Assembly (NCBI RefSeq): GCF_004799665.1
Contig: NZ_CP031310.1
Coordinates: 984,887-1,048,886 of the forward strand
Reading direction: 5' to 3'
From: Halapricum salinum
Lineage (GTDB): Archaea; Halobacteriota; Halobacteria; Halobacteriales; Haloarculaceae
Length of the DNA stretch: 64,000 nucleotides
The position numbers were made by a program, and so were the translations under genes. Positions 15,492-57,590 of this stretch are shown in pieces. Position 1 is the first letter of the stretch. The number at the start of each line of letters is the position of its first letter. Under the pieces are notes generated by a model, which was not told the origin of the DNA, did not search any database, and saw only the letters and a program-made list of their open reading frames with translations.

Positions 15492-15678
15492 ACTAGCGTA
15501 CGCGGCTGAAGGCCACGTTTCACTGAACCGAGCGGAGCGAGGTTCAGCCTTTTTCCCCACGTTTTTGCGAGGAGTGGTTCCCACAGCGAACGCAGTGAGC
15601 GAGGAAACCCGACGAAGTAAAAAGTGGGTGTAGATCGATGTCGTGAGTGGTGCAGCGACTGCTGACGACTAGCGAGAT
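15450..15678 (+). repeat. diverged direct repeat of the metE2 3' end
   Basis: The last ~45 bases of metE2 (15450-15497) recur at about 15634-15674. In the second copy the same frame reads I-D-V-V-S-G-A-A-T-A-D-D-stop, against I-D-V-V-A-G-A-E-A-S-A-D-D-stop in the gene. Differences include synonymous ATT/ATC and GTT/GTC changes and a 3-nt gap. The sequence between contains a short inverted repeat (ctgaacc ... ggttcag). It looks like an insertion that replaced the original gene end. Confidence 0.6.
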
Positions 15679-25257: not shown

Positions 25258-25343
25258 CTATAGTAGCCATTGAAAGTCAATGCACACACGATCGCACGAC
25301 AACAGTGCGATCGGTGTGTAAATCGTTTCAATTGTTACTATAG
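25258..25343. repeat. 86-bp imperfect inverted repeat
   Basis: Two arms of about 40 bp (25258-25297 and 25305-25343) are separated by 7 nt. Outer ends are ctatagta and its complement; the inner stem is cgatcgcac/gtgcgatcg. Between these the arms match only partly. It sits between the AroA' gene and the small zinc-finger gene, both on the minus strand, so it could be a terminator for the first, an operator for the second, or a small mobile element. Confidence 0.75.
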
Positions 25344-25383
25344 TCTGTGTTGTGTACCCGGGCGGAAAACTGTGTCCGCGAGA

Positions 25384-26752: not shown

Positions 26753-26873
26753 GGGCCACTTCGTCAGTTGATTTCCCGATACGGTTCTTCATATTTGCTT
26801 CAGGGAGGTTCACAACTTTCTCCTGACGGGAGGGAACTGATAGTTAGTCGTTCCAGCAAGCCTGTCGCACGTT

Positions 26874-26990
26874 CGCTAGGAGTTGACCTCGAAACCCTTG
26901 GAACCCCCACCGGTGGAAAGCCCTCACCTCGATCGCTAGGAATCAGTGACAACTTCACCAACTCGGGAAAGCCCTCACCTCGTTCGCGGT
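26874..26990 (-). repeat. two reverse-oriented ~51-bp tail-repeat units
   Basis: The motif ggaaagccctcacctcg occurs at 26915-26931 and 26966-26982, 51 bp apart, and cgctagga occurs at 26874 and 26934. Read on the minus strand these correspond to the units at 27390-27455 and 57465-57590 (consensus about CCTAGCCAGCGAGTCGAGGG then CTTTCC). Confidence 0.7.
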
Positions 26991-27056
26991 CGCTACGCGG
27001 CATATCCTCGCTCGCGGTGCTCGCTCGGATAGTGGCCGCCGTAGCGACTAGATAAA

Positions 27057-27312
27057 CGCGAGCGAGGTTCGCCCTTTCATCCACCAGGCTTCCGACCGCA
27101 CCGCATTATCGTTCCCCCACACCTCCCCGGTTCCGGCGCGAGTGCGCCGCGAGAGCAAGCTCTCGCGAGCCCTGCGTCGCTTCGCGCCGCAGGACGCCGG
27201 AACACGCTTCCTGACCGCCCCGCAGTGGCCGGGAGCGCGTCTTGTCGAGTGACCTGGGGAAGGGCAGGTTTGCTGTGCTGTTTCCTGGAGGATGAAAGGG
27301 CGAGACTCGGTG
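27057..27312 (+). repeat. structured intergenic element, copy 1
   Basis: The ends form an imperfect inverted repeat: cgaggttcgccctttcatcc (from 27063) pairs with the complement of ggatgaaagggcgagactcg (27290-27309). Inside are blocks shared with copy 2 at 57077-57318: ctccccgg, then a hairpin, then acacgcttcctgaccg, gtggccg and ggggaagggcagg. The hairpin of this copy (27130-27203) is closed by gttccggcg/cgccggaac and contains nested stems; its sequence is unlike that of copy 2. Non-coding on both strands as far as I can see. Could be a structured RNA, a mobile DNA element, or both. Confidence 0.75.
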
Positions 27313-27335
27313 GCGGTGAGCGTAGCGAACAGATG

Positions 27336-27386
27336 CGCTCAGCAACAGGGTTCCCGTGAGTGGAACGAACGGGATGCTGCTGAGCG
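27336..27386. repeat. second hairpin of structured element copy 1
   Basis: A perfect 9-bp stem cgctcagca/tgctgagcg closes a loop with an inner gttcc/ggaac stem. It sits between the outer inverted repeat and the tail units, the same place as a larger, unrelated hairpin in copy 2. Confidence 0.7.
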
Positions 27387-27389
27387 TGC

Positions 27390-27455
27390 GCCAGCGAGTC
27401 GAGGGCTTTCCTGCGTTATCAGCGTTGCAGTTATTGTCTCCTAGCCAGCGAGGCG
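27390..27455 (+). repeat. forward tail-repeat units, copy 1
   Basis: ccagcgagtcgagggctttc (27391-27410) and cctagccagcgaggcgagag (27440-27459) are two units about 51-53 bp apart, matching the array after copy 2. Confidence 0.7.
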
Positions 27456-27507
27456 AGAGGGTACGCCAAGGACCATTCCATCGATATCGAGAACCTCAGC
27501 CACGTTC

Positions 27508-27747: not shown

Positions 27748-28581
27748 TTATCGTTTCAGAGCATCCTCGGGGTCATTGAACTTTCCGATATCCCACAGAG
27801 TATCGGCATCAGTGTTGATATCTATGCTCAGGGGGTCTATCCCGATCGACACATTGTCGATTGGAATACTATGCTCAACCCAAAATGCTTCTGTGTGTTT
27901 GTAATACCCCAATATTGAACCTGCAACACCATCCAAGTTCTCTAATTCAGCATAGAGTTCAACGTATGAATTGTTTGGGAGAACTAACGGATCTGCCGAT
28001 AAATTGATTTCTCCAACAAGTCCTCCTCCGCTGCCACCTGTGGAATCAGAAAAGAAGCTTGCTGAATGAGGATTCTCGGCGTAGACATCCGGCTCACCTA
28101 CCAACGACCAGTGGTCACCATTAAACGCCATCCCGACGGCATCATTTGCATATGTCGCTGACCCTACTGAAGACTCGACATTCTCAAGATCGACCATCAC
28201 ATGGACGCTTATTTGATCTGTATGCGGAATCGTAACGGAAGCCACACTTAATTCCGAGTCACTTTTTTCATATCGATCCATCGTAGACACTTCATCGTCC
28301 GTCTCAAAGCTACTCTCTGGCGTGCCGGAGTCATGTACATATGCTAGATCGGCACGTTCCAACACGGACTCCACTTCATCTGAACCTCCCTCTCGAAATG
28401 CTGAACTCATTTGTTCGTGTAGCTCACCATTCGCTCCAGAAGGTCTGAACGCGGCTCCTTCACCTGGGGAATGAGACCTTCCACTGTTTTCTCTTTTTCC
28501 GCTTGCGATACCAATACTACTAATCAGTGAAAGTGAGCCGACTGATTTGATGAATTTTCGTCTTCTCTCTCTCTCATACAT
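27748..28581 (-). CDS. Tat-exported protein of unknown function, AT-rich gene
   Basis: This 277-residue protein starts M-Y-E-R-E-R-R-R-K-F-I-K with a twin-arginine motif and a short hydrophobic stretch, without a lipobox, so it is predicted to be exported by Tat and released or held by its partner. The mature part is acidic, Ser-rich and beta-rich. ATG 28581 is preferred over the upstream one because the R-R motif then lies close to the N terminus. AT-rich codons (AAT, GAT, TCA) contrast with neighbours. It is probably cotranscribed with the small membrane protein downstream. No recognised domain. Confidence 0.65.
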   Translation of the reverse strand: MYERERRRKFIKSVGSLSLISSIGIASGKRENSGRSHSPGEGAAFRPSGANGELHEQMSSAFREGGSDEVESVLERADLAYVHDSGTPESSFETDDEVSTMDRYEKSDSELSVASVTIPHTDQISVHVMVDLENVESSVGSATYANDAVGMAFNGDHWSLVGEPDVYAENPHSASFFSDSTGGSGGGLVGEINLSADPLVLPNNSYVELYAELENLDGVAGSILGYYKHTEAFWVEHSIPIDNVSIGIDPLSIDINTDADTLWDIGKFNDPEDALKR

Positions 28582-28660
28582 CAACAACCAAAAACAAATA
28601 CACATATAAATACTATCATTCGAATATAGTTAAATAGTTTATTCTCATGGTGACGATCGT

Positions 28661-29356
28661 TCACAATTGGTCATCCCCGTGTAAGGGAATGACGTACGCC
28701 TCGACAAACGTGACCAACTTCTCGACCAGTTCCTCGCGAGTCTCGAAGTACATGAATCTGAGGTCGTAGGCGTCGTCCATCTCGTCGATAGACGCACTAC
28801 TGAATCTCGGATCGTACGTTCCGTTGTCTCTTCGTTCCCCCTCTGCGAAGATGCAGAACATCCGTGGATCCCGCAGGGACTCGCCGGGTTTCCGGAGTCG
28901 AAAATGTTCAGGGATCGCACCCGTTTCTGCTCCGACACCAGTCGTGAGTCCTGCCTTGGTGAACACGAACGCGTTTCCTGCACTTGCTCTGGCAAAGGCC
29001 ACGGACTGATCGATGACGGCCATCCCTGGCTCGTCCAGCCCTTTGTCCGCTACTTCCTTCCGCGTCGGGATATCGACGTCACTCGCGATGAACGCAGTCG
29101 CCGCTGTTGCCTCGGAGATTCGCGATGCTATCTCCCGGAGAGTCGTCTCGATGAGATCCGGCTGTGGAACCTCATTACTCGGCGCGAGCGGATCCGTCGG
29201 AAGCGGGAACTCCCCCTCTGCATAGACGTATTTCGGATCCAACAACCGATACGGCCCCATCAAGAACAACAGTGGTGCTGACTCAGGGGCAGAAATAGAA
29301 CGCTCGATGATGTCTCCCACCGACTCCCCCCGGTATCTCATCTGCTCCATCGACAT
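28661..29356 (-). CDS. haloarchaeal conserved protein with nucleoside-deoxyribosyltransferase/TIR-like features
   Basis: This 231-residue protein (DUF7509-like, from memory) has a strand L-L-F-L-M-G-P-Y-R-L-L near residue 28, a helical region, A-F-I-A-S-D near residue 86, then S-V-A-F-A-R-A-S-A-G-N-A-F-V-F and G-V-G-A-E-T-G near residue 145, and a final M-Y-F-E-T-R-E-E-L. The order, with a G-x-x-x-E-x-G helix after a strand, recalls nucleoside 2-deoxyribosyltransferases and related TIR/STALD folds, which cleave N-glycosidic bonds of nucleotides or NAD. This fold match is my inference. It is divergent from the HTH gene at 29451. Confidence 0.6.
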   Translation of the reverse strand: MSMEQMRYRGESVGDIIERSISAPESAPLLFLMGPYRLLDPKYVYAEGEFPLPTDPLAPSNEVPQPDLIETTLREIASRISEATAATAFIASDVDIPTRKEVADKGLDEPGMAVIDQSVAFARASAGNAFVFTKAGLTTGVGAETGAIPEHFRLRKPGESLRDPRMFCIFAEGERRDNGTYDPRFSSASIDEMDDAYDLRFMYFETREELVEKLVTFVEAYVIPLHGDDQL

Positions 29357-29404
29357 CGTTTCGAGAGAGTCCCCCCAATATATAAATTAGTGTTGGAGAC
29401 GCGT

Positions 29405-29420
29405 CTTAACCAGCGTTAAG
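29405..29420. promoter_or_regulatory. palindromic operator candidate
   Basis: cttaac-cagc-gttaag is a perfect 6-bp inverted repeat, directly before an attttaac TATA-like box (29421-29428) and 31 nt before the ATG of the winged-helix gene. The position over the promoter elements suggests autorepression by that regulator or control of both divergent genes. Confidence 0.6.
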
Positions 29421-29450
29421 ATTTTAACGATAGGATCACGAGTAATCAGT

Positions 29451-29816
29451 ATGAGCGAGCGAGAGACAGTTCGAGACGACCGACCAACTGCGCGCGAGCG
29501 AGTCGAGGAGGAGTTGCTCGGGGAGGACCTCGATCTCGGACGAGAGGTGGCTCGGCTCAGCGCGATGGGTGAGGCGACGCGGTTTACGATTCTCTATCTG
29601 CTCGCGACCGACGGTGAGACCTCCAGCGGCGAACTGGCGACGTTGCTCGACAGACGCCAGAACGACCTCTATCACCATCTGAACAAACTGGAAGAAGCGG
29701 GGCTCGTCGGGAAGTACCGCGAAGGTGGCGATCGCGTGTACGAACTGTCACCGCTGGCAGAAGCGATCGTTCCACAGATATTCGACTCGATCCGGGATCG
29801 GGCAGTCGTCGCCTGA
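29451..29816 (+). CDS. ArsR-like winged-helix transcriptional regulator
   Basis: This 121-residue protein has a helix-turn-helix in residues about 40-105: A-M-G-E-A-T-R-F-T-I-L-Y-L-L, S-S-G-E-L-A-T-L-L-D-R-R-Q-N-D-L-Y-H-H-L-N-K-L and the wing with Y-R-E-G-G-D-R-V-Y-E-L-S. The HHLNKL recognition-helix end is typical of ArsR-type haloarchaeal regulators. No metal-binding Cys is present. It is divergent from the gene at 28661-29356 with a palindrome between them, so that gene is the likely target. Confidence 0.85.
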   Translation: MSERETVRDDRPTARERVEEELLGEDLDLGREVARLSAMGEATRFTILYLLATDGETSSGELATLLDRRQNDLYHHLNKLEEAGLVGKYREGGDRVYELSPLAEAIVPQIFDSIRDRAVVA

Positions 29817-35836: not shown

Positions 35837-36052
35837 ATGAGTGCTTCCGAGATGGAATCAGCCGACGAGACGCCGGCCCCGGTCGTGAAAAAGATCATCA
35901 GGACGGTGACGCCGGGGTACGGGAGTCACGAGGACGCTGGGATGAACGCCGTCGGGTGGACCCTGTTTCTCGGGCTAGTGATCATTATGCTCCCCTTCCT
36001 CCCGCTGCTGGTCATCGTCTGGGCCATCTCGAAGCTGCTGGAGAAACTGTGA
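35837..36052 (+). CDS. small conserved haloarchaeal membrane protein (DUF7535-like)
   Basis: This 71-residue protein has a basic segment (V-V-K-K-I-I-R-T-V-T-P-G-Y) and one long hydrophobic helix (W-T-L-F-L-G-L-V-I-I-M-L-P) at residues about 41-68. I recall similar proteins across haloarchaea under DUF7535. Divergent from the histidine kinase gene, with a tttatgct box about 25 nt before the ATG. Function unknown. Confidence 0.72.
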   Translation: MSASEMESADETPAPVVKKIIRTVTPGYGSHEDAGMNAVGWTLFLGLVIIMLPFLPLLVIVWAISKLLEKL

Positions 36053-36069
36053 CTGCAACGCGAATACCG

Positions 36070-36160
36070 CAGGAACACCCTCGACTCGCTGGCTCGGAAT
36101 CGATGACAGCAACACGAACAAGCAGGGCTTTCGAGAAGGTGGCTGCAGTAGTGACGGTTC
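36070..36160 (-). repeat. degenerate tail-repeat remnant
   Basis: accctcgactcgctggctcg near 36077-36096 followed by gatgacagcaac, and agggctttcgagaaggtggc near 36124, resemble the reverse of the 51-bp tail units found with both structured elements. The outer inverted repeat and core blocks are absent, so this is a fragment. Confidence 0.5.
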
Positions 36161-56995: not shown

Positions 56996-57076
56996 CGATT
57001 CCTCGTAGGTGATCGGGTGTGATGAATCCTGCGAGCTAGGACTCGTAGCTACTGCCCTCGCCTACTCCTCGAAAGC

Positions 57077-57318
57077 GCGAGCGAGGTTCGCCCTTTCATC
57101 CGCCAAGAGGACAGCGTTGCGAGCGCGACGGAGCGCGCTCGTGATATTCCACCACTCCTCCCCGGTCGCTCGTCATCCGACGAGCGACACGCTTCCTGAC
57201 CGTCCCGCCGTGGCCGAGAGCGAGTGTCACGACGACAGTCGTGACCGACGACCCGGGGAAGGGCAGGCCTGCTGTGCGGGTGCGGTGCTGTCCTGGCGGA
57301 TTGAAAGGGCGAGACTCG
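57077..57318 (+). repeat. structured intergenic element, copy 2
   Basis: Blocks shared with copy 1: cgaggttcgccctttcatcc (57082-57101), ctccccgg (57158), acacgcttcctgaccg (57187), gtggccg, ggggaagggcagg (57255) and ttgaaagggcgagactcg at the right end. The outer ends pair better than in copy 1 (tccgcca/tggcgga). The equivalent hairpin is gtcgctcgtc-atcc-gacgagcgac (57165-57188), unrelated in sequence to that of copy 1. A further hairpin gtcacgac/gtcgtgac is at 57226-57245. Confidence 0.75.
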
Positions 57319-57342
57319 CTTGGGCCGAACGGAGTGAGGAGC

Positions 57343-57463
57343 GTCGCTGTGCAGGCTTTATCTGAAGGATGCGAGGGCGACCGGAGGGAGCCCTCGATAC
57401 GGAACGGGGAGCGAAGCGACCCGTGGAGTGAGTGAAACGAACGAAGATATCCTGCACAGCGAC
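57343..57463. repeat. long-range hairpin of structured element copy 2
   Basis: A perfect 13-bp stem gtcgctgtgcagg/cctgcacagcgac encloses 95 nt with inner stems cgagggc/gccctcg (57372-57396) and acggg/cccgt (57404-57424). It occupies the same place as the smaller hairpin at 27336-27386. Confidence 0.75.
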
Positions 57464-57464
57464 C

Positions 57465-57590
57465 CCGAGCGAGTCGAGGGCTTTCCCGAGTTGCTGTCAG
57501 CGATGTTGTAGCCTAGCCAGCGAGTCGAGGGCGTTCCCTGCTTGGTGGCAGTGCTGTCTCTGTCTCCTAGCCAGCGAGTCGAGATCGATC
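57465..57590 (+). repeat. array of three ~51-54-bp tail units, copy 2
   Basis: gcgagtcgaggg starts at 57469 and 57520, and gcgagtcgagat at 57574, at 51 and 54 bp. The second and third units begin cctagccagcgagtcgag. The sequences between are related but not identical (ttgctgtcagcgatgttg, ggtggcagtgctgtctc). Confidence 0.75.

Follow-up and report, generated by a model that had tools for sequence, protein, structure and literature searches.

A dispersed, gene-less palindromic repeat with a conserved fold in Halapricum salinum and other haloarchaea

Among described systems, the haloarchaeal PATEs and SMR-A of Haloquadratum walsbyi (PMC3119063) resemble the element analyzed here in being transposase-free, palindrome-rich, and dispersed, with small repeats entering the palindromes of a larger element; no target duplication was seen in them, and none was callable here. 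However, PATEs have tnpB-related ends, whereas our element is unrelated to the tnpB ends at the 11 such loci of its own genome and has an inverted pair of ~100-nt arms plus tandem tails; its copies are also far more diverged than the homogeneous PATEs, and family-wide covariation and a GA/GNA loop signature are not described there. Bacterial REP, BIME, and REPIN sequences (PMC2817692, PMC3116915) are likewise intergenic, palindromic mosaics of modules with many copies per genome, but our element is much longer (450-760 bp), has ~35 copies, and occupies a genome without a RAYT (Y1) gene. In mitochondria, the palindromic GC clusters of yeast and the double-hairpin elements of fungi (PMC4478555) are similar as palindromic modules that insert, merge, and shuffle by an unknown mechanism; ours differs in host domain, its GC-rich background, a much larger composite structure, and a conserved core motif. 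Finally, DNA mini-hairpins such as d(GCGAAGC) are exceptionally stable when two G-C pairs close a GNA loop (PMC4686876); the tips of our signature hairpins fall in this sequence class, with GNA enclosed by two pairs that are mostly G-C, but there they are known as synthetic or aptamer sequences, whereas here the tip is flanked by tandem G.A pairs and a covarying stem and is repeated in genomes.

The element is a haloarchaeal non-coding repeat of ~450-760 bp, composed of an inverted pair of hairpin arms, a structured core, and tandem tails. It was studied in a window of 64,000 nucleotides from the single-contig chromosome (3.45 Mb) of Halapricum salinum, and the positions given here are those of the window. 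To our knowledge, few descriptions exist from archaea of large, dispersed repeats whose fold is deeply conserved, and no published account of this family was found among 5.39 million open papers. The original prediction had outlined, at 26874-27455 (copy 1), an ordered, non-coding arrangement of tail units, inverted repeat, hairpins, and core that matched no known family. All of the parts lie at or within a few bases of where they had been placed (Table 1), the three overlapping ORFs are without a Pfam match, and none of 4227 Rfam models scored above its gathering threshold or with E < 1. Two corrections apply: copy 1 probably begins slightly to the left, with a decayed tail unit at ~26853, and 27130-27203 is a hairpin that holds an inserted double-hairpin module (27149-27195). 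Left tail units at 26915 and 26966 (22 nt) are 95% alike, and right tail units are located at 27390 and 27444.

Table 1. Parts of copy 1 and related features in the window
Feature	Position	Strand	Basis or remark
Outer left tail units (first decayed), ending in terminal motif CTAGGA(A), inverted relative to right tails	26853..26941	-	Sequence, repeats D1 and D3
Left hairpin arm: GAAAGCCCTC - stem - hairpin 1 (26988-27048) - stem' - TCGCCCTTTC	26967..27078	-	Reverse-complement type of right arm
Outer inverted repeat 27057-27088 / 27284-27315 closing the core	27057..27315	+	84% complementary; MFE fold
Conserved core strand CCCCCACACCTCCCCGG	27113..27129	+	Kept in Haloglomus copies
Variable (nested) hairpin	27130..27203	+	Unfilled form in copy L036 is GTTCCGGCGCGAGTGGCGCCGGAAC
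Nested double-hairpin module GCGAGAGCAAGCTCTCGC - GAGCC - CTGCGTCGCTTCGCGCCGCAG - GAC	27149..27195	+	
Core motif M1, GGCCGGGAG - hairpin - CGACCTGGGGAAGGGCAGG type, most widely conserved part	27220..27277	+	Model R1 match at genome 1012106-1012163; covariation
Right hairpin arm: GAAAG-GGCGA - stem - hairpin 2 - stem' - GAGGG-CTTTC	27294..27410	+	
Hairpin 2, signature loop GA-GT-GGA-AC-GA at tip	27336..27386	+	Stem 27336-27347 / 27375-27386, 92%
Right tail unit TCCTAGCCAGCGAGGCGAG	27439..27458	+	Sequence and repeat search
Tail fragment of the same repeat (W3)	36052..36093	-	
Copy 2	~57034-57590	+	Own extra double-hairpin insert 57368-57432

A general plan was drawn from the comparison of 36 loci. 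Tandem inverted tail units (CTAGGAA-N25-CTCGAAAGCCCTCACCACGCTCG) precede the left arm, which is built as in Table 1; in the middle, TTTCANTCCNCCAGG / CCTGGNGGANTGAAAG form an inner inverted repeat, the variable hairpin sits between core strands CCCCACNCCTCCCCGG and ACGCTTCCTGACC, and M1 takes the form GGCCGGGAG-hairpin-CGACCCGGGGAAGGGCAGGC; the right arm, again with the pattern of Table 1, is followed by forward tail units terminating in TTCCTAGC. Three Haloglomus copies (L163, L164, and L200) have the identical order of parts in different letters. Where both arms are present, they lie 125-456 bp apart, with no gene inside any copy. Separately, a segment of ~170 bp (GCAGGCCTGCTGTGCTGTCACTACAAGCATACGGCG...GGAAAAAGTGG) is tandemly repeated within one copy (L054, 1700-2090), which shows a recent unit duplication.

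The AT-rich stretch that had been noted as adjoining copy 1 (27.5-29 kb, on the right side) is not part of the repeat and contains ordinary genes. These encode a 285-aa protein that matches nothing in Pfam, a DUF7509 protein, and a regulator resembling ArsR (27748-29816), all three missing from the corresponding gap of the congener G004. Positions 25258-25346 hold a further palindromic repeat, distinct from the element and MITE-like, whose ends are of the CTATAGTAGCCATTGAAAG / CAATTGTTACTATAG type; 43-46 nt of it recur at 98-100% identity at four other places in the genome, one of them within a tail unit of an element copy (L057).

Only two copies had been implied by the original prediction; the search that it had proposed, of the whole genome and other haloarchaea, instead located the element at ~35 places in the same chromosome and in many genomes, and dispersal is thereby demonstrated. 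A covariance model of M1 (R1) alone gives 34 matches in the chromosome. Among 98 well-assembled haloarchaeal genomes searched with the M1 model at E <= 0.001, 32 contain the motif, including 21 of 23 in family f7, 6 of 19 in the organism's own family (f1), 3 of 3 in f6, and 2 of 3 in f5, with none in the 35 genomes of f4 or the 12 of f12. When a 19-nt core pattern was searched over 84,980 named genomes, the matches listed were mostly from Haloarcula, Natrinema, Natronococcus, Haloglomus, Halosimplex, Halopiger, and relatives; the few bacterial ones among them were scattered and of a number attainable by chance. The plasmids and viral contigs searched had no match to the element, and an origin as plasmid or virus cargo was rejected on that ground. 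Within the genus, a first search returned no match in G001 or G002, one each in G003 and G005, and nine in the incomplete G004; ~35 copies here against zero or one in four of five congeners indicate a burst in this lineage or loss in the others.

Copies are intergenic, commoner between convergent or tandem genes and rare between divergent ones, and their insertion sites can be read against the congeners. The insertion and REARRANGEMENT comparison set all copies against 2.4 Mb of the 2.9-Mb G002. One site is near-exactly empty there, with the flanks of L034 ~14 bp apart in G002 versus 769 bp here; the flanks of L043 are 72 bp apart in G002 versus 634 bp here, and the junction at copy 1 (between bcp and an abhydrolase gene) is a 31-bp convergent gap in G004 versus 3.1 kb here, other genes included. 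These comparisons demonstrate insertion relative to the congeners. Where flank homology stops, the left edge is (G)CTAGGAA and the right edge TTCCTAGCCA; terminal CTAGGAA / TTCCTAG recurs, CTAGGAA forms the left edge in copies whose flank is conserved in G002, and at copy 2 that conservation reaches within 3 bp of the element. The repeat thus has terminal inverted repeats and is too short to code, as would be required of a MITE. No target-site duplication was callable at junctions compared with congeners, which are too diverged there.

Copies are also enriched at synteny breakpoints. For the 13 copies with both flanks mapped in G002, 4 were collinear, L034 and L043 among them, and 9 were not, compared with 6 non-collinear among 26 control points in the window, although the control points depend on one another, and other gene gain or loss may account for some of the breakpoints. 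At two gene junctions that G002 retains unbroken, the neighbors have been separated here and each half adjoins a copy (L033/L063 and L035/L052), as would be expected had copies recombined with one another. Our best reading, to which we assign a probability of roughly 0.55, is that the element is a non-autonomous mobile repeat based on palindromes whose copies double as recombination sites. The alternatives named at the outset, a mobile element or a structured RNA, were the right pair, and mobility gains support from the empty sites and the lineage-specific burst. The absence of any copy seen with a gene inside speaks against mobility, and no recent transposition is visible because most copies are only 68-80% identical to their best partner.

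Smaller double-hairpin modules have been inserted into the hairpins of copies. Several internal hairpins occur both filled and unfilled among copies: the nested hairpin of copy 1 carries the module of Table 1 and is bare in L036, all six genomic matches to the second half of this module fall within element copies, and a second module family, TAG-hairpin-(T/G)ACCA-hairpin-GAC, is found in five other copies. Two adjacent hairpins are therefore inserted as a unit into other sequence, as in the fungal double-hairpin elements, an analogy with no homology claimed. A scan of other genomes with a strict double-hairpin pattern gave nothing above control (a looser GNA loop pattern did).

Compensatory changes have preserved the fold. 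Compared with shuffled sequence, the RNA minimum free energy has z = -4.8 for 27057-27312 and z = -7.8 for the whole of copy 1, and folding as DNA gives z = -5.3 for the second hairpin and z = -3.5 for the nested one; in this copy, decay has affected part of the core hairpin's inner stem. In M1, 6 of 10 pairs are changed on both sides. A first register for its lower stem paired poorly and was replaced by the RNAalifold register, in which 7 of 11 pairs are changed on both sides and there is a tandem GA/GA internal loop. Right arms from this and other genomes (26 sequences) have 95% paired cells, and all 10 stem pairs are changed on both sides; the covariation score is 1.00, against 0.30 when shuffled and <=0.17 when slid, in this set selected for pairing. 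Because of that selection, we added an unselected set from other genomes only, taking every AAGGGCGA with its nearest downstream GAGGGCTT regardless of pairing, and these 29 arms are complementary at a mean of 9.1 of 10 positions versus 5.6 when re-paired between loci. Covariation, which the original prediction had suggested checking, is therefore strong in both arms and core. The conditions under which that prediction would have been refuted (a mere pair of copies, no sign of covariation, or membership of a named family) thus did not hold. Plain decaying mobile DNA would not have kept its stems paired at such an age, which counts against mobility alone; since copies at 68-80% identity still fold, either selection or palindrome-correcting template switching maintains the stems. 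For the same reason, the repeat may have a selected role as RNA or single-stranded DNA.

An 11-nt tip, GA-NN-GNA-N'N'-GA, recurs on the small hairpins within and beside the element, with stems that are free to vary. There are 46 such signature hairpins in the element's own loci (196 kb), whereas almost every control pattern gives 0-2, the signature's reverse complement scoring equal by construction; 1.6 Mb of G002 contains 32 (controls 0-6), and 0.9 Mb of other loci contains 60 (controls 0-13). Of the hairpins with a 6-bp stem, 22/25 (own loci), 26/38 (G002), and 35/41 (other loci) have a complementary inner NN pair. A lone GA-GC-GGA-GC-GA hairpin stands at 15525-15545 of the window with no element copy nearby. 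Because GNA mini-hairpins with G-C closing pairs are exceptionally stable as DNA, we lean towards folded DNA, which is an inference, since RNA likewise tolerates tandem G.A pairs. On an alternative reading, doubtful when taken as one joint claim, the repeat would be a device selected for its fold, in which a family-wide assembly of GNA-capped, tandem-G.A hairpins, hundreds of bases long, acts as folded single-stranded DNA (or a large RNA), is recognized by a putative haloarchaeal enzyme, and grows by double hairpins inserted into its own hairpins.

It is rather unlikely that the repeat is a structured RNA, free-standing or a 3'-UTR element, kept by host selection, with M1 and the arms folding in RNA and binding a protein and with dispersal secondary. 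The strong compensatory change in arms and core and the foldability of old copies agree with this, as does the occurrence of solitary M1, often a few bases past a stop codon, across Haloarculaceae and Natrialbaceae. However, the M1 strand has no consistent relation to neighboring genes, and as a strict 3'-UTR element M1 was rejected, the upstream gene being on the same strand in a modest majority only. Strand tests had a mixed outcome overall: on the motif strand of arms from other genomes, G.T mismatches outnumber A.C (17 versus 5), but GNA hairpin stems have no G.T excess (70 versus 73); GNA hairpins of G002 within <=75 nt of a stop codon are all on the sense strand of that gene, but the GNA sense-strand bias is not significant once clusters are merged (14/21, p = 0.19). 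Moreover, no conserved promoter was found by eye, no Rfam family matches, and the element cannot be essential because the congeners G001 and G002 have no detected copy.

More improbable still is a REP/BIME-like mosaic maintained, instead of by transposition, through its use by the host (as a bidirectional 3' end or terminator, or as a nucleoid or gyrase site) or through template switching that corrects its palindromes. The element does consist of intergenic palindromic modules in varying combinations, its preference for convergent or tandem over divergent gene pairs would suit such use, and quasi-palindrome correction would keep old stems paired; M1 of Haloarcula and Natrinema, with its T-flanked right-end hairpin abutting the stop codon of the next gene, points the same way. 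However, this explanation leaves unaccounted for the single-lineage burst, the 600-750 bp insertions at sites empty in congeners, and the conservation of single-stranded motifs, such as CGGGGAAGGGCAGG, across families. As a separate observation, M1 at L068, L069, L143, L193, and L197 and at the Natrialbaceae loci L146-L190 is often accompanied by a T-flanked right-end hairpin (CCACGTTTTT...AAAAAGTGG or GAAATTTTGC...GCAAAATTTCG) that ends a few bases from the stop codon of the next, minus-strand gene; the pair is possibly a bidirectional terminator.

If the element is, as we prefer, a non-autonomous mobile repeat, its folded arms, with their tandem G.A pairs and GNA-capped hairpins, would be the substrate for a transposase or endonuclease acting in trans, and the recognized form would probably be single-stranded or cruciform DNA. 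Old copies would then become landing pads for more hairpin insertions and substrates for recombination between copies. Y1 transposase (PF01797) is absent from this genome while present in control genomes, and DDE_3 transposase (PF13358) is also absent here, so mobilization by RAYT/Y1 or IS630 enzymes in this genome was rejected; the mobilizing enzyme may have been lost from it or be of another type than those tested. MITEs of the IS630/Tc1 type prefer TA targets, compare the TA within CTAG. It is very unlikely that the element is a PATE, in which the ends of an IS605/IS1341 (TnpB) transposon are fused: near-terminal palindromes, the lack of a callable target duplication, and small repeats inside palindromes recall the PATEs and SMR-A (PMC3119063), and the genome has 11 TnpB-type matches, but the flanks of all 11 tnpB loci have no similarity to the element (on which ground a TnpB omega-RNA origin was likewise rejected), there is no Y1 transposase, and PATEs lack terminal inverted repeats, whereas here the arms form an inverted pair and CTAGGAA motifs stand inverted at the termini. 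By eye, a CRISPR array was dismissed since the tail "spacers" are alike, and an integron attC since its core-site consensus is unmatched.

Overall, the element behaves like old gene-less mobile DNA whose fold is kept across many haloarchaea while its letters change. That it has been overlooked so far may partly be because none of the 47 sampled f4 and f12 genomes has any copy. If it were a device selected for its fold, it would represent an unrecognized class of mobile or structural element, one not detected in those two sampled families. The repeat lends itself to testing how palindromic DNA spreads and how it retains its palindromes, and it yields a covariance model and a loop signature that can be used for annotation. 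It may also explain some of the rearrangement breakpoints and 3'-end structures of Haloarculaceae and Natrialbaceae.
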